Of a stretch of DNA of 34,384 nucleotides, positions 20,326-25,462 are shown piece by piece. The position numbers were made by a program, and so were the translations under genes. The number at the start of each line of letters is the position of its first letter. Position 1 is the stretch's first letter. The DNA comes from Leptolyngbyaceae cyanobacterium C42_A2020_001 (GTDB taxonomy: Bacteria > Cyanobacteriota > Cyanobacteriia > Leptolyngbyales > Leptolyngbyaceae), in contig JACYLN010000149.1 in assembly GCA_015272515.1 (NCBI GenBank), positions 1 through 34,384 on the forward strand, written 5' to 3'. Below the pieces are notes generated by a model. The model was given only the letters and a program-made list of their open reading frames with translations, ran no database searches and was not told where the DNA came from.

Positions 20326-20736
20326 ATGAAATCTGCTTCGGCTTCTTCGCAGACGTGGCTCAAGTTTGTCCTACATGCAAACGTAAAAGCAGCGATCGCG
20401 CCTTCCCTAACGCTGCTGACCTTCGCCCTCACTAGTACAAACTGGATCGTCGCTGCCTTTGCTCAATCAGCCTCACCCAGGGTGATTAATAGCGTCGTGT
20501 ATCGATGTGATGATAGTAAGGGCTTTTCGGCCGAATACTTGGATGACAAAACCGTGAGAGCAACCTTTGGGTCTAAAGTGTTTGTTCTACCTCAAGAGCC
20601 GTCAGCATCGGGCGCACGATACAGCAATGGTAGCGTCACCATCTTTACAAAAGGGAACGACGCGTTTGTAGAAGTCGGCGACAAGCGGTTGTTTGACAAC
20701 TGTATTGCCGTTGGCTCAGTTCCTGGACTCTGGTAA
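20326..20736 (+). CDS. Secreted MliC-family (c-type lysozyme inhibitor-like) protein
   Basis: This 136-aa protein has a hydrophobic N-terminal signal (about 20-46, ending VAAFAQ). The mature domain is MliC: VYRCDDSKGFSAEYLDD, VFVLPQEPSASGARYSNG, VTIFTKGNDAFVEVG and a second Cys in FDNC, forming the usual disulfide. The SGARY segment and the Lys in TKG, which contact the lysozyme active site in characterised MliC proteins, are kept. There is no lipobox Cys, so it is probably periplasmic and soluble rather than a lipoprotein. AGGAGG at 20313-20318 gives a strong start. The fructosamine kinase gene follows after 18 bp. Its divergent paralogue is at 11440-11790. Confidence 0.85.
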   Translation: MKSASASSQTWLKFVLHANVKAAIAPSLTLLTFALTSTNWIVAAFAQSASPRVINSVVYRCDDSKGFSAEYLDDKTVRATFGSKVFVLPQEPSASGARYSNGSVTIFTKGNDAFVEVGDKRLFDNCIAVGSVPGLW

Positions 20737-20754
20737 ACCCATCCTCGGCAATTT

Positions 20755-21627
20755 ATGTGGGATTCGATCGCAACACACATCAGTCAAGTTACCGGGCAGT
20801 CGTTCCAGATAGAGGAGCGGCGATCAGTAAGCGGTGGGTGCATCAACTCTGGCTATGCCCTTTCTAACAAACAACAAACCTACTTCGTTAAACTGAACCA
20901 GGCACCCCAAATTGCCATGTTTGAGGCAGAAGCGGAGGGGCTGGACGAGATTGTGGCAACCCACACCATCAAAGTCCCCAAGCCGATTTGCTGGGGTACG
21001 GCTGGCAATTCTGCCTATTTGGTGCTGGAATGGCTGGACTTAGGACATAGCGGGGGAGCGGTCTGGTCAATCATGGGGCAACGGTTGGCAGCGATGCATC
21101 GGGTCACCAGTGCCAGCGGTTTTGGCTGGAAGATGAACAACACGATTGGTTCTACGTCCCAGCCAAATCCCTGGACAGCTAATTGGGTTACCTTTTGGCA
21201 AGAACATCGGCTTGGGTTTCAGTTTAAACTGGCAAACCGACGTGGTGGGCATTTCCCCAAACAGGATCGCTTGTTGGCTACGATTCCTCAACTGTTAGCA
21301 GGGCATGATCCACAACCCTCGCTGGTGCATGGCGATTTGTGGTCAGGCAATGCGGCTGTCACCCGTGCCGGAGAACCTGTAATTTTCGATCCGGCAACCT
21401 ACTATGGCGATCGCGAAGTCGATCTTGCAATGACAGAACTATTTGGTAGCTTTCCGGCTGATTTTTATCGCGCTTACAACCAAGCCTTTCCACTTGATTC
21501 TGGTTATCAGCAGCGCAAAGTTCTCTACAACCTGTACCACATCCTCAACCACTTCAACCTGTTTGGCGGCAGCTACGATTCCCAGGCAAACCGCATGATC
21601 GATCAAATTCTCAACTTAATTCCCTAA
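20755..21627 (+). CDS. Fructosamine/ketosamine-3-kinase family protein
   Basis: This 290-aa protein has the aminoglycoside-phosphotransferase-like fold. Seen are the N-lobe VSGGCINSGYALSN and YFVKLN (ATP Lys), the hinge LVLEWLDLG, the catalytic loop LVHGDLWSGNAAV (about 200-212), the metal Asp in VIFDPATYYGDREVDLAM and the C-terminal YNLYHILNHFNLFGGSY. These are diagnostic of FN3K proteins, which phosphorylate the sugar C3 of glycated amines to trigger deglycation (protein repair). It is cytoplasmic. It follows the MliC-like gene by 18 bp on the same strand and probably shares its transcript. It is complete, with no unusual residues. Confidence 0.9.
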   Translation: MWDSIATHISQVTGQSFQIEERRSVSGGCINSGYALSNKQQTYFVKLNQAPQIAMFEAEAEGLDEIVATHTIKVPKPICWGTAGNSAYLVLEWLDLGHSGGAVWSIMGQRLAAMHRVTSASGFGWKMNNTIGSTSQPNPWTANWVTFWQEHRLGFQFKLANRRGGHFPKQDRLLATIPQLLAGHDPQPSLVHGDLWSGNAAVTRAGEPVIFDPATYYGDREVDLAMTELFGSFPADFYRAYNQAFPLDSGYQQRKVLYNLYHILNHFNLFGGSYDSQANRMIDQILNLIP

Positions 21628-21759
21628 TCTAGTTAACAAGACATTAAAACTACTTGAGGGGTAGATAATTCAGATTTGAAATGAATCTGAAGAAAAATAG
21701 CAGGAGGTAAGCAAATATTTTGAAGTTAGCGGTTGAAGAAAACTACTCAATTTCCATGT

Positions 21760-22707
21760 CTAAGAGGCATCAGGAAACCGCAGATCGGAGCAGATGCGGT
21801 TGATGATTTGCACATAGGCTTCTGCGGCTGCTTGAAAAACGTTGCTATGGCTGGCACTTTCTTCATAGCTAATGCCCTCGCATTCCACGCCAACGACGAC
21901 TTCTACTGGAGAATCGGCACCAAACAGAGTTGCAGGGGGCACAGACCAACGGCTCAAATATCGAGTTGGTAGAGGGATACACTGATCCACGGCTTGATCG
22001 ATCGCTTTTTGCAATGCATCAACTGGGCTATTACCGATCGCCGTTCCCTGCAATCCTCGACCAACTTTGTCGCATAAGGTCACACTCACTTCATTCCCTT
22101 CGCCAGTTTGCAGATAGAAATTCATTAACCGGAAGCGCTGTAATCGGCGCGATCGCAGCAGTCGGCGTTCTTCAATTTCGTTCTCTTCCAGTTGGTCTTG
22201 TTGCAGTTGCAGTAGAAATGCCCTAACTGAAAAAATGCCGATTTTCAGTGTCACCATTTCTTGCGATTCCGCATCTTCAATCCGGATCGGCAATTGAAAA
22301 TATTCATTGATTTGCACCTGGTTGTGTTCCTCCGCATTGCGGGCGAATTGATGTGGCTCCCAGGTTACAATGCAGTCTAAAAAGCGATCGCGGGCACAGG
22401 CAATTCGCAATGCATCACAGAAGTTGATTCGGTAGCGATTTGACCCTTCTAAAATGTCGCTGTCAATGGGGCATTTGTGCCGAATCCGATGCAACATTTC
22501 AACGTAAGCAGACTGGCAAATCGCATCACCACCCAAGCGAAACGTGTCCCAAAACGCGATCGCCAGCGCATAATCAAACTCCGTCATGTACCAGGTCACA
22601 GGTTGAGCAGATAACCTTTGCAGCAAATTCGCGTAATATCCTCGGCTCACGCTCCGATTGGCTAAAGCATTTTGAAACACGTTGGCGGTCACAAGCGCAC
22701 TACGCAT
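21760..22707 (-). CDS. PIN-like domain fused to LeuA allosteric (regulatory) domain
   Basis: The product is 315 aa from ATG 22707, which has AGAGG before it; the TTG at 22746 is less likely. The N-terminal ~135 residues look like a PIN-type nuclease fold: SALVTANVFQNAL at the start and DALRIACARDRFLDCIVTWEPHQFA at the end, although the first Asp of the usual D-T-N-V is replaced by Thr. A Glu/Arg-rich linker follows (about 190-215). The C-terminal ~100 residues match the 2-isopropylmalate synthase dimerisation/leucine-binding domain: VSVTLCDKVGRGLQGTAIGNSPVDALQKAIDQ, then VEVVVGVECEGISYEESASHSNVFQAAAEAYVQIINRI. No catalytic LeuA barrel is present. It may be a leucine- or ligand-sensing RNA-binding or nuclease-like regulator; this is inference. 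Confidence 0.68.
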   Translation of the reverse strand: MRSALVTANVFQNALANRSVSRGYYANLLQRLSAQPVTWYMTEFDYALAIAFWDTFRLGGDAICQSAYVEMLHRIRHKCPIDSDILEGSNRYRINFCDALRIACARDRFLDCIVTWEPHQFARNAEEHNQVQINEYFQLPIRIEDAESQEMVTLKIGIFSVRAFLLQLQQDQLEENEIEERRLLRSRRLQRFRLMNFYLQTGEGNEVSVTLCDKVGRGLQGTAIGNSPVDALQKAIDQAVDQCIPLPTRYLSRWSVPPATLFGADSPVEVVVGVECEGISYEESASHSNVFQAAAEAYVQIINRICSDLRFPDAS

Positions 22708-22852
22708 AACACCTCTAGACACGATGCGAACCCTCGATGGAGCCAACCTTTCCGTTACTCATCACACGCTCATTGCCAAAGCTATCCACTCAACTGTTTG
22801 AGAATTGTGAGTCTTTACCCTTGTGGATAGCGAGATTCACAGATCATCCTTC

Positions 22853-23329
22853 CTAAACCACCCCTTCATCACTACCCTCGTCTGACGATGGATGTTGATT
22901 GGAGCTTCGCTCTTTCACTGCCAACACTTTTTCCATCATGGCTTCGAGATTGGCAATGCTTTCCATTTGTGCGCCCAGCGCGCCCAGTTTGGCGAATCCC
23001 GCTTCCATTTGGGCTTCCAAGCGTAAAATGCGTTGTTTCGTTTCCGTATCTGGCTCAGTTACAACGTTTTGGGGCAACAGTGGAGCATAGATAGGAACGG
23101 GAGAAATATTGCCAAAATTGACTTGTTTCAACTGCCTGAGTTCCCGAACTTCCTCCTCCAGTGCTGAAAGGCGATCATCAGGACTTGTCTGCAACCCCTG
23201 CCTTACCAATCTACACAGGAGTTCTGTGACGGTGGTGTTTTCTTCGTCTGCGCGCGATCGCAGTGCATCCAGTAGATCTTCAGGCAGTCGAAAACTCACC
23301 AACTTCTTCTCAAAGGTTTTCTTATCCAT
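22853..23329 (-). CDS. Ribbon-helix-helix regulator with coiled-coil C-terminus
   Basis: The product is 158 aa from ATG 23329 (an ATG at 23383 would add 18 residues). The N-terminus KKLVSFRLPEDLLDALRSRADEENTTVTELLCRLVRQGL is a typical CopG/Arc-type ribbon-helix-helix: a beta-strand with alternating polar residues, then two helices. After a break the protein shows heptad-rich segments (DRLSALEEEVRELRQL and KQRILRLEAQMEAGFAKLGALGAQMESIANLEAMMEKVL) that should form a coiled coil, then an acidic/Ser tail. It probably binds DNA as a dimer/tetramer. TGTATATA-type sequences lie just upstream at 23415 and at 23662-23690, possible own or neighbouring operators. No toxin gene is adjacent, so it is not an obvious antitoxin. 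Confidence 0.78.
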   Translation of the reverse strand: MDKKTFEKKLVSFRLPEDLLDALRSRADEENTTVTELLCRLVRQGLQTSPDDRLSALEEEVRELRQLKQVNFGNISPVPIYAPLLPQNVVTEPDTETKQRILRLEAQMEAGFAKLGALGAQMESIANLEAMMEKVLAVKERSSNQHPSSDEGSDEGVV

Positions 23330-23414
23330 GTCGGCTTCAAACTGATTTTTTGCTGTACATTCACCCAAATCACAGAGGCGCATAATGACTCACTGTAGCT
23401 AAGTTTGCAGTTTA

Positions 23415-23423
23415 TGTATATAC
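23415..23423. promoter_or_regulatory. TGTATATAC site upstream of the ribbon-helix-helix gene
   Basis: It matches the half-site of the palindrome at 23662-23690 and lies 86 bp upstream of the ATG at 23329. A possible autoregulatory operator (inference). Confidence 0.4.
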
Positions 23424-23463
23424 CGGGTGATACATTTTATCGCTACTTCACACAAGAGAGGAG

Positions 23464-23594
23464 GGGAATAGGGAATGGGGAATAGGAGATAGAGAAGGTG
23501 AGGAAGGAGTTGGAGATTGAGGCGCTAGAGAATTTTGAATTTTCTCCCACCTCCCTCGCCTTCTGGCTTCTGGCTTCTAACTCCTGACTTCTAA
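23464..23594. repeat. Two adjoining heptamer tandem arrays
   Basis: From 23464 to 23519 about eight 7-bp units vary around GGGAATA/GAGAAGG. From 23544 to 23594 about seven units vary around CTTCTGG/CTTCTAA/CTCCTGA. The right part is nearly identical to the segment inside the glmS-like gene (25270-25304), which shows that both derive from one repeat family. Confidence 0.72.
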
Positions 23595-23661
23595 TGAATT
23601 CTCCTTGCCGCTTTTTAGTATTGAAGCAGTAAACCGATCTTTCTGTATATCTAACAACAAA

Positions 23662-23690
23662 CTATTGTATATATTTTGTATATACAATAG
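23662..23690. promoter_or_regulatory. Palindrome with 12-bp arms before the zinc-ribbon gene
   Basis: CTATTGTATATA (23662-23673) and TATATACAATAG (23679-23690) form a perfect inverted repeat around TTTTG. TTGTATATA is also repeated directly inside it. It is AT-rich and sits 55 bp before the start of the membrane protein gene. An operator for the neighbouring ribbon-helix-helix protein is the simplest guess. Confidence 0.5.
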
Positions 23691-23745
23691 ACATCAATTC
23701 TTTTGCTCCAGCGATCGCCAATCAATTCCAACCAGGAGAACCCTT

Positions 23746-24084
23746 ATGAAATGCCCCTACTCAGACAGCCTCATGCCGCGCTGCCAAATCACCATGCATC
23801 CCCATCGGCAAAATATTGAGTATTGCCGAACTTGTGGAGAGTGGCGCTATCTCAGCGACGTAGGTGACGAGTTCCCCAATGTGTTTTGGCTGATTGTTGC
23901 GCTCTCCATTAGCATGATGGTGTTTGTAGGGTTGGTGAATGAAAGCGACACCGCTCGTCGCCAACAGGAGCAGCGCCGCCGCGATCGCGATTATTTAGGG
24001 CAATCGGAACACGTTGAAGGTCAGGTGCGATCGCTCACTCCAATCGTCCCTGAAGACTCGCCCTTTACACTAGAGTTTTCGTGA
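23746..24084 (+). CDS. Small zinc-ribbon-like protein with one membrane segment
   Basis: This 112-aa protein is not assigned to a family. It begins MKCPYSDSLMPRC and continues with YCRTCGEWRYL, giving two Cys pairs spaced like a small zinc ribbon (residues 3-42). A TM helix FWLIVALSISMMVFVGLV follows at about 48-65, and then a strongly charged tail (RRQQEQRRRDRDY) and a Pro/Glu-rich end. The tail or the ribbon could face the cytosol; topology is not certain. The ATG at 23746 has AGGAG 8 bases upstream. A longer frame opening at 23605 lacks such support. The final 20 bp overlap the convergent GlmS-like gene. Confidence 0.7.
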   Translation: MKCPYSDSLMPRCQITMHPHRQNIEYCRTCGEWRYLSDVGDEFPNVFWLIVALSISMMVFVGLVNESDTARRQQEQRRRDRDYLGQSEHVEGQVRSLTPIVPEDSPFTLEFS

Positions 24085-25462
24085 TATTACGAGGACGATC
24101 CACATCCAATCCCTTTAGCACTGCCAGATGATACGCCAGCAGTTGCAGCGGAATCACCGTCAAGATAGGCGATAGCATTTCATCGATAGGCGGCAGCACA
24201 ATTTGCTGATCAAAAATTTCAGCCGTTTCACTGGCGCTGTTGGCAGTAACGATGCCAATCAGCGGAGAACCGTGGGATCTAGCTTTGAGCGCATTGGCAA
24301 GAATGGCAGATTGCGTTGCCCCCGCAGGCGCGATCGCGATCACTGGAACCCGTTCATCCAAAAGGGCGATCGGTCCATGCATAAACTCACCAGCCGCATA
24401 GCCTTCCGCATGAAGGTACGTTGCCTCCTTGAGTTTAAGTGCGCCTTCCAGGGCGATCGCTCGGTTAATCCCTCGCCCTAAGAGTATGCATGTTTGCGCT
24501 TCTACAAGCCGCTGCGCTACTGCCTGAACTGCCGCTTCCTGCTGCAACACCTGATGGATGCTTACTGGTAGTTGATGAAGTGCGGTCAAGGCATGAGTCA
24601 GGCGATCGCGATCCAGCGTCTGACGGTGGGATGCCAACTCTAGTGCCAGTAAGTAAAACACAACCAGTTGAGCGGTAAACGTTTTCGTTGCCGCAACACC
24701 AACTTCCTCACCTGCCAGGGTTGGCAACACTGCATCCACCAGGTTTGCCAATGAACTGGTGGGCTGATTCGTAATACCCAACAAACGCGACTGGTACTCT
24801 AACGCATAAACAGCACGCCGCTGTTTTTCCAATTCCAGCGCTTGCAACGTGTCTGCCGTTTCACCCGACTGAGTTACACCAACAGTTAGCGTATGGACAG
24901 TCATTGGTAAAGGCGCTTCCAAAAATTCCGAGCCAGAGCGAATTCGAGTTGGAATATGCGCCAACTGTTCCAACCAAAACTGAGCAACCAATCCCGCATG
25001 GCGACTTGTGCCAGAAGCGATAATGTGAATTTCGTTGAGAGGAAAGGTGAGAGATTGGAGATTGAAGATTGGAGATTGATTGATAACTGGTAATTGGTCA
25101 TCGGCGATGGGGAATTGGCGATGGGGAATTGGCAAGGGGGAATTGGCAAGGGGAGGCTGAGGCGTTGGAGAATTTTGTTCTCCCTGAGTCGAACCGAAGG
25201 GAATTTTGGCTTCCGGTGAGTCAGCCGAACCGAATTTTGAATTTTGAATGTCTCTCCCACCTTCCTCATCTTCCGCCTTCTGGCTTCTGCCTTCTAACTC
25301 CTGCCGTCCCAAATAACTTGTTAAACACGTTTGAATAGCTTCGGGCTGCTGATGGATTTCTTTCAGCATGAAATGGGAAAAGCCCTGTTTGCTGGAGAAA
25401 TTAGGATTGACTGAACTCGTTGCGTTGCCGGGCGGTTGTACCCGGTCGGAGATTGGATTCAC
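24065..25462 (-). CDS. GlmS-like sugar isomerase (SIS domains only) lacking the glutaminase domain
   Basis: This 465-aa protein matches the C-terminal isomerase half of glucosamine-6-phosphate synthase. It has the GFSHFMLKEIHQQPEAIQTCL lead-in, then SIS1 with ASGTSRHA, TQSGETADTLQAL, SLANLVDAVLPTLAGEEVGVAATKTFTAQL, and SIS2 with GRGINRAIALEGALKLKEATYLHAEGYAAGEFMHGPIAL, ending PRNITKTLV. The N-terminal Cys-dependent glutamine amidotransferase domain (about 240 aa) is missing, with only 52 bp separating the gene from bcsA upstream. Residues ~52-138 are a Pro/Gln-rich insertion encoded by heptamer repeats. It could act as a deaminase, an ammonia-dependent synthase, or be a decaying paralogue. 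The GTG start at 25462 is tentative. Confidence 0.8.
   Translation of the reverse strand: MNPISDRVQPPGNATSSVNPNFSSKQGFSHFMLKEIHQQPEAIQTCLTSYLGRQELEGRSQKAEDEEGGRDIQNSKFGSADSPEAKIPFGSTQGEQNSPTPQPPLANSPLPIPHRQFPIADDQLPVINQSPIFNLQSLTFPLNEIHIIASGTSRHAGLVAQFWLEQLAHIPTRIRSGSEFLEAPLPMTVHTLTVGVTQSGETADTLQALELEKQRRAVYALEYQSRLLGITNQPTSSLANLVDAVLPTLAGEEVGVAATKTFTAQLVVFYLLALELASHRQTLDRDRLTHALTALHQLPVSIHQVLQQEAAVQAVAQRLVEAQTCILLGRGINRAIALEGALKLKEATYLHAEGYAAGEFMHGPIALLDERVPVIAIAPAGATQSAILANALKARSHGSPLIGIVTANSASETAEIFDQQIVLPPIDEMLSPILTVIPLQLLAYHLAVLKGLDVDRPRNITKTLV
25049..25309. repeat. Repeat-derived in-frame insertion in the GlmS-like gene
   Basis: The segment is composed of CTTCTGG-type heptamers (25270-25304) and GGGGAATTGGC-type 14-mers (25100-25145). 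It translates without a stop as a Pro/Gln/Asn-rich stretch (PLPIPHRQFPIADDQLPV). It is the coding counterpart of the intergenic arrays at 23464-23594. Confidence 0.72.

Follow-up and report, generated by a model that had tools for sequence, protein, structure and literature searches.

A PIN–LeuA fusion and its ribbon-helix-helix-like partner suggest an old toxin–antitoxin pair turned nutrient-responsive gene switch in some cyanobacteria

We analysed a 34,384-nucleotide stretch of DNA from a Leptolyngbyaceae cyanobacterium (hereafter the window) that encodes a protein with a predicted PIN-like fold joined to a predicted LeuA-type regulatory domain. Its family comprises clade A, with the architecture found in the window or the PIN part thereof, and a diverged clade B. 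The predicted folds of both halves, a conserved pairing with a ribbon-helix-helix (RHH)-like gene, the complementary loss of acidic PIN residues in the two clades and repeat arrays upstream of the RHH gene suggest that an old toxin–antitoxin pair was turned into a nutrient-responsive gene switch in some cyanobacteria. We consider it somewhat probable that a former toxin–antitoxin pair became a DNA-binding complex that regulates itself and responds to amino acids, its PIN domain being a pseudo-nuclease. A fuller version is put forward more tentatively, as a serious and rather doubtful possibility: a novel type of transcriptional regulator, namely a two-protein amino-acid switch in which a pseudo-nuclease ex-toxin would carry the sensor of a leucine enzyme and an ex-antitoxin would read an 11-bp-phased array, the nuclease site having been lost in two ways and the partnership kept.

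The open reading frame at 21760–22707 that the preliminary description had singled out was recovered on the minus strand, with its ATG at 22707 and 315 codons for amino acids, and both LeuA-like stretches quoted there were found in the translation (Table 1). The proposed lack of the LeuA catalytic barrel was borne out, as residues 3–163 match PIN folds instead; the TIM barrel that precedes the regulatory domain in 2-isopropylmalate synthase is missing from the 315-residue fusion, and an ordinary leuA-length gene of the host genome sits on another contig. Comparison of the window fusion with its nearest relative gave a whole-gene pN of 0.126 and pS of 0.701 (dN/dS 0.07, dS being close to saturation), and pN was lower than pS by a factor of about 5 or more in the PIN part and in the LeuA part alike. 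Clade-B and canonical PIN rows of the alignment are gapped at the hairpin stretch within residues 126–188; a connecting helix is also present in the predicted structure of a clade-B protein. On the other side of the fusion, at 20326–21627 on the plus strand, lie a small protein and a kinase-like gene, which we take to be fructosamine-kinase-like, an arrangement (clusters C3 and C4) that 7 of the 18 clade-A loci share.

Table 1 Features of the fusion locus, in window positions.
Feature	Position	Strand	Details
PIN–LeuA_dimer fusion gene	21760..22707	-	315 aa, ATG at 22707, stop included; full-length homologues; pN << pS to three relatives
LeuA regulatory (allosteric/dimerisation) domain, residues 189–310 (predicted)	21778..22143	-	Pfam PF08502; Z 15.6 to 3f6h
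Beta-hairpin insertion and connecting helix, residues 126–188 (predicted)	22144..22332	-	Secondary structure, alignment
PIN-like domain, residues 1–125 (predicted)	22333..22707	-	VapC fold match, profile match, residue table
Ribbon-helix-helix-like partner, 158 aa, long C-terminal extension	22853..23329	-	Sub-cut-off RHH_5, RHH_1, CopG_antitoxin; alignment A5
Putative operator site TGTATAT, proximal to RHH gene	23415..23421	+	Pattern search
Putative operator array	23644..23686	.	TGTATAT at 23644, 23666 and 23677; steps 22 + 11 bp; spacing statistics
Divergent small protein, zinc-ribbon-like Cys pattern, one hydrophobic segment	23746..24084	+	Probable regulated neighbour

LeuA_dimer (PF08502) was the sole Pfam model to exceed its cut-off in the window protein, scoring 41 bits where 24.9 are required (residues 187–305, E 2.2e-10), and NCBIfam LeuA models covered the same C-terminal stretch at scores far under their full-length cut-offs. 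A PIN domain was not found by the Pfam scan of the window protein alone; four of 15 members of the family gave weak PIN_3 matches (E 0.023 at best), and the two canonical PIN proteins that we scanned gave PIN_3 matches at E 4.2e-25 and 6.8e-26. Profile–profile comparison of the family with seven canonical cyanobacterial PIN proteins scored 98.3 % (E 1.1e-14), a match that is not independent because those seven proteins were found with the same family profile. Sequence searches of the PDB returned 12 matches to the window protein, none of them meaningful (best E 0.23), and the family profile gave weak matches to VapC 7by2 (E 0.044) and LiCMS 3f6g (E 0.1), mixed with unrelated entries; fold comparison was therefore used instead.

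The AlphaFold model of the window protein, built with 17 sequences, had a pLDDT of 85.6 and a pTM of 0.55, a modest value that leaves the mutual placement of the two halves unfixed. Foldseek placed LiCMS/LeuA structures at all of ranks 1–12 (E 6.0e-07 to 6.4e-05) and PIN-type structures lower, among other rows, including 1v8p, presumably a PIN protein (E 8.6e-04), and the Mycobacterium tuberculosis toxin–antitoxin structure 7vwo (E 1.5e-03). In VIA-align, residues 190–310 matched 3f6h, the regulatory domain of the citramalate synthase LiCMS, with Z 15.6 and rmsd 2.4 over 117 residues; M. tuberculosis LeuA structures followed at Z 11.3–11.5, with leucine-bound LeuA 3fig at 11.3. Residues 3–163 matched VapC 7by2 with Z 11.0 and rmsd 3.0 over 113 residues, and VapC structures as a group matched the PIN half at Z 8.6–11.0. 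Unrelated double-stranded-RNA-binding and ribosomal proteins were also among the Foldseek matches; in the VIA list they fell on the first half of the LeuA domain. Sequence and predicted structure together support the joining of a PIN fold and a sensor domain of LeuA type. The fold search of both halves agreed with the preliminary description, in which the C-terminal half was the LeuA regulatory domain (here PF08502 above its cut-off and a predicted LeuA/LiCMS-like fold) and the N-terminal half was PIN-like (weak PIN_3 matches in relatives, the profile match and a predicted VapC-like fold).

Searches for relatives covered the class sample, plasmids and viral contigs, and the further PIN–LeuA fusions that had been anticipated were found in both clades. 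Clade A was present in at least 13 of 291 sampled class genomes, the window genome included and one of them (G173) without the LeuA part, and on two contigs of cyanobacterial metagenome assemblies (L100 and L101). Profile searches recovered it from 10 of 42 genomes of its own family and, in a second family, from 6 of 36; a six-peptide scan of genome contigs with the window protein reached only two cyanobacterial loci. Most other matches listed in the 291-genome search were LeuA-length frames, and a few short frames led to clade B. Five clade-B loci (L165, L166, L168, L169 and L170) were reached through two short LeuA-containing frames and RHH matches, and a profile search, in which at most the six best candidates per genome were scored, added L196, L197 and L198, with matches in at least 8 of 388 genomes. 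Once the disrupted L168 was set apart, LeuA_dimer was recognized in 7/7 clade-B proteins and PIN_3 in 1/7, below its cut-off (E 0.0084). The model of the L169 protein (7 sequences, pLDDT 73.3) matched VapC 7by3 with Z 13.8 and LiCMS 3f6g with Z 13.0 in VIA-align. A tree of LeuA domains (46 rows, including 24 of 74 leuA domains) placed clades A and B on one side of a branch with support 87/87, not starred; long branches meet in this tree, and L014 fell among clade B. One fusion origin for the two clades is possible on this tree.

Breakage or shortening affects 4 of the 26 copies in the two clades, indicating that the RHH/fusion module is dispensable in some strains. The fusion copy at L106:8256–9128 (G142) is shortened at its C-terminus, the gene at L107:8724–9708 (G296) is split, and the clade-B gene at L168:2576–3844 (G269) is disrupted. 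At L113:8072–8635 (G173), a clade-A RHH and PIN pair (184 aa) is missing the LeuA domain. Short open reading frames of 159–168 aa with little besides a LeuA regulatory domain were seen at L137:1909–2388 and L138:1601–2107; these may be either split LeuA genes or free-standing sensor domains. The window protein had no match among plasmids, and 47 pattern stretches in viral contigs yielded zero confirmed relatives, so a link to mobile elements was dropped; a link to defence was likewise dropped when PADLOC returned no defence match for five proteins.

Residues of the PIN site were tabulated from a joint alignment with 16 rows from clade A, 7 from clade B and 7 from canonical PIN proteins, from which L006 (near-identical to L005) and the fragment L043 were left out. 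The replacement of the first catalytic Asp noted in the preliminary description proved general in clade A: position 7 is Thr in 15 and Cys in 1 of the 16 rows, and is Asp in 7/7 clade-B and 7/7 canonical rows. At position 98, Asp is found in 15 clade-A rows (Asn in 1 of 16) and in 7/7 canonical rows, with Ala or Phe in 7/7 clade-B rows; position 117 is Glu in 16/16 clade-A rows, Asp in 7/7 canonical rows, and Asn, Arg or Thr in 7/7 clade-B rows, most of which keep an Asp three residues further on. The window protein follows its clade, carrying T7 for the first Asp and, at the two later positions, the acids D98 and E117. Clade A shows no variation at N9, N13, D45, R101, T115, E117 and F121 and hardly any at T7 and D98; in the column of D45, a candidate for the second acidic PIN position, the canonical rows have Thr. 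As aligned, neither clade has the complete acidic PIN site of VapBC/FitAB toxins, and different parts of it are lost in A and B. Replacing just one of these acids is enough to inactivate VapC toxins. With D98 and E117 retained, clade A may have residual or altered catalysis.

The two ligand loops also distinguish the clades. We aligned the fusions with 74 cyanobacterial LeuA domains, six of which were compared in printed rows; L011 and L013 were left out of the loop counts, and L168 out of alignment A7. The first loop reads GTGPVDA in the six printed LeuA rows and retains G-x-G-P in 7/7 clade-B rows; in 14/15 clade-A rows Ser or Thr replaces the second Gly, which L014 retains. The Asp of the second loop, present in the six LeuA rows and in 7/7 clade-B rows, is Asn or Ser in 14/15 clade-A rows (HSNVF in the window), L014 again keeping the original residue. 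We take these two loops to line the leucine site; since both are altered in clade A, its LeuA domain may bind a different ligand or none. The earlier proposal of a leucine-type sensor is supported as regards the LeuA-type domain itself, by fold and Pfam; leucine is a putative ligand, with altered loops in clade A and intact ones in clade B.

The fusion does not stand alone, as had been thought. In 18/18 clade-A loci (17 if the near-identical L108 and L109 are merged) and in 8/8 clade-B loci, its immediate upstream neighbour, on the same strand, is an RHH gene; this is the arrangement of VapBC/FitAB systems, in which a PIN protein has an RHH partner encoded upstream, and the reading of an isolated gene was discarded. 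The accompanying statement that leu genes are missing beside the fusion was upheld, none being seen adjacent. The RHH assignment rests on sub-cut-off scores, as none of three partner proteins scanned in Pfam exceeded a cut-off; the window protein scored 19 bits for RHH_1 (cut-off 20.5) and 19.6 for RHH_5 (cut-off 26). The motif KLVSFRLPEDL...TELVCRLLRQGL is conserved in 17 alignment rows, and partners are mostly 129–188 aa long (82 aa in L114). In the window, 145 bp separate the RHH gene from the fusion, and a promoter and terminator search over 21500–24200 gave no match. A partner profile, with at most the 13 best candidates per genome scored, matched at least 25 of 291 class genomes, of which 13 have clade A, 5 have clade B and 7 (L164, L167 and L171–L175) have neither fusion among the matches listed for them. 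Partner relatives lie at L164:2026–2313 and near 2200–2420 of L167, where the fetched stretch holds no PIN–LeuA gene.

Repeats resembling operators are concentrated upstream of the RHH gene. All five exact TGTATAT copies of the window fall in the one intergenic region there; five in 34 kb were equalled by 2/100 shuffles, making the clustering rather than the number notable. The copy at 23677 belongs to the palindrome TGTATATACA. The proximal copy at 23415 has counterparts in L099, L101, L106, L110 and L113, where they lie at −91 to −93 relative to the start of the RHH gene. In 17 RHH-upstream regions of 420 bp, ATATACA/TGTATAT occurred 41 times versus 2.3 in shuffles, with 15/17 regions positive. 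With L109 (near-identical to L108) omitted from the motif counts, TGTAT[AT]T was found 46 times in 7,650 bp upstream of RHH genes versus 39 times in 227,128 bp elsewhere for clade A (17 loci), and 20 times in 3,495 bp versus 4 times in 39,648 bp for clade B (8 loci), so that its density in the 450 bp upstream exceeded that in the rest of the fetched loci 35-fold (A) and 57-fold (B). Of 28 pairs of GTAT[AT]T lying on one strand no more than 40 bp apart, 19 were spaced by 11 bp (nine), 22 bp (seven) or 33 bp (three), whereas shuffles averaged 0.42 pairs in total; these repeat statistics include close relatives sharing part of their arrays by descent. TGTAT[AT]T is absent from the 450 bp upstream in L112, L115 and L166, the last of which carries CGTATATCAAA repeats. 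The upstream motif scan was likewise enriched in GCGATCGC, presumably a general cyanobacterial repeat, which we set aside.

In pattern searches of the window's genome, these repeats did not extend into a wider regulon. The exact 11-bp tandem TGTATATNNNNTGTATAT occurs once in the 5.55-Mb genome, at this locus. With up to two mismatches it gave 9 matches in that genome, two of them here, against 5 for the reversed-pattern control; an ATATACA tandem with an 8-base gap and up to two mismatches gave 13 against 14, and TGTATWTNNNNTGTATWT with up to one mismatch gave 3 against 2. Because matches barely exceeded controls and only the fusion locus stood out, a wider regulon was dropped.

The gene across the array encodes a protein with the pattern CP...C...HP...YC-x2-C and no Pfam family above cut-off. 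Divergent open reading frames were counted if they started within 650 bp on the opposite strand, with Cys and hydrophobicity criteria that we set. A protein with the Cys pattern and a hydrophobic segment was found at 15/26 loci (10/18 in clade A, 5/8 in clade B), and a different divergent protein with a hydrophobic segment at six others. Neither sort is present within 650 bp in L110, L112, L114, L166 or L170 (contig end); L112 has a divergent gene farther away. A profile of the clade-A protein, for which at most the 18 best candidates per genome were scored, matched at least 9 of 291 genomes, seven of which had supplied clade-A rows or were near-identical to one that had; the other two were weak (best E 3.3e-07 and 7.1e-07), and among these candidates strong matches were confined to fusion loci.

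An RHH-like partner and an upstream repeat array favour a transcriptional regulator over one based on RNA or a nuclease. The suggestion of a metabolite-responsive regulator thus remains a reasonable reading, and the nuclease or RNA mode of action first attached to it gives way to DNA. In the explanation that we favour, the fusion would be the co-regulator in a two-protein complex derived from an RHH–PIN pair of VapBC/FitAB type. The helically phased TGTATAT repeats that separate the putative RHH operon from the divergent gene would be the binding site of the RHH protein. The PIN domain would no longer cut RNA, its site being incomplete, and would instead dock the RHH protein's tail in the presumed complex, which the LeuA domain would dimerise. 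This domain would also bind a small amino-acid-like ligand, of the leucine family in clade B and perhaps another in clade A; binding would alter cooperative DNA binding, with a presumed effect on transcription and a presumed direction of regulation. Several observations weigh against this regulator: clade A keeps D98 and E117, and its altered loops may mean that sensing was lost there; 4/26 copies are broken or shortened, and L112, L115 and L166 are without a TGTAT[AT]T site in the 450 bp upstream; pattern searches gave hardly any second target in the genome; and the genes are separated by the 145-bp gap with no promoter or terminator match, next to a partner with sub-cut-off Pfam scores.

Some of these observations would be expected if the same RHH/PIN regulator used its LeuA domain merely to dimerise and sensed nothing, at least in clade A. 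The loops altered in 14/15 clade-A rows at each of two positions, and the PIN part kept without LeuA in L113, are consistent with this; both loops are intact in 7/7 clade-B rows and the clade-A domain is retained with pN well under pS, and we regard a sensorless domain as unlikely. The RHH–PIN gene order, which is that of VapBC, together with D98 in 15/16 and E117 in 16/16 clade-A rows, could instead point to a working type II toxin–antitoxin system, an amino-acid-gated PIN ribonuclease controlled through LeuA and neutralised by an RHH antitoxin. With the first Asp gone in 16/16 clade-A rows, the two later acids gone in 7/7 clade-B rows, PADLOC empty for five proteins, plasmids without a match and viral contigs without a confirmed relative, such a system is very unlikely.

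We find it highly improbable that the PIN half performs some newly gained, non-nuclease chemistry or is RNA-binding, with the RHH neighbour controlling its expression only. The invariance of N9, N13, D45, R101 and E117 in clade A is what a rebuilt pocket would show, and the cyclodehydratase RohQ (by title) is among the fold matches; that pocket is not kept in clade B, however, and RHH pairing at 26/26 loci is strict for a plain enzyme. Least credible, to the point of being nearly negligible, is a chance fusion or decaying gene with no particular function: 4/26 copies are broken or shortened and the spread is patchy (at least 13/291 and at least 8/388 genomes), but diverged relatives retain architecture, partner and motifs, and pN is far under pS in both halves.

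If the favoured explanation of an amino-acid-responsive DNA-binding complex is right, a toxin–antitoxin pair lost catalysis, took over an allosteric domain from a biosynthetic enzyme and was thereby domesticated as a nutrient sensor. The effector-binding part of an RHH regulator would then reside on a toxin-derived partner, and toxin–antitoxin exaptation could be tested directly on two small proteins and a short piece of DNA. In openly licensed literature, we found no title that describes a PIN–LeuA fusion, and no paper was found that brings 'PIN domain' and 'isopropylmalate synthase' together; an account may exist in other print. PIN–RHH is listed as a common pair, in a paper whose main text contains neither 'isopropylmalate' nor 'LeuA' (PMC2701414).

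The locus resembles VapBC/FitAB in its order of RHH then PIN, in a predicted PIN fold closest to VapC (Z 11.0 in clade A, 13.8 in clade B) and in having repeats upstream of the RHH gene, as would suit autoregulation. It differs in the incomplete catalytic acids of both clades, the extra LeuA regulatory domain, the long C-terminal tail of the RHH partner and the divergent membrane-type gene. With LeuA and LiCMS the fusion shares LeuA_dimer and the regulatory fold over about 117 residues, including both loops in clade B, but it has no catalytic barrel and its clade-A loops are changed. NikR and MetJ are metabolite-controlled RHH repressors whose effector site lies within the RHH protein itself. 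If the favoured explanation holds, the cyanobacterial pair would likewise be a small-molecule-controlled RHH protein acting at repeated sites, but its effector site would lie on a partner protein derived from a toxin.
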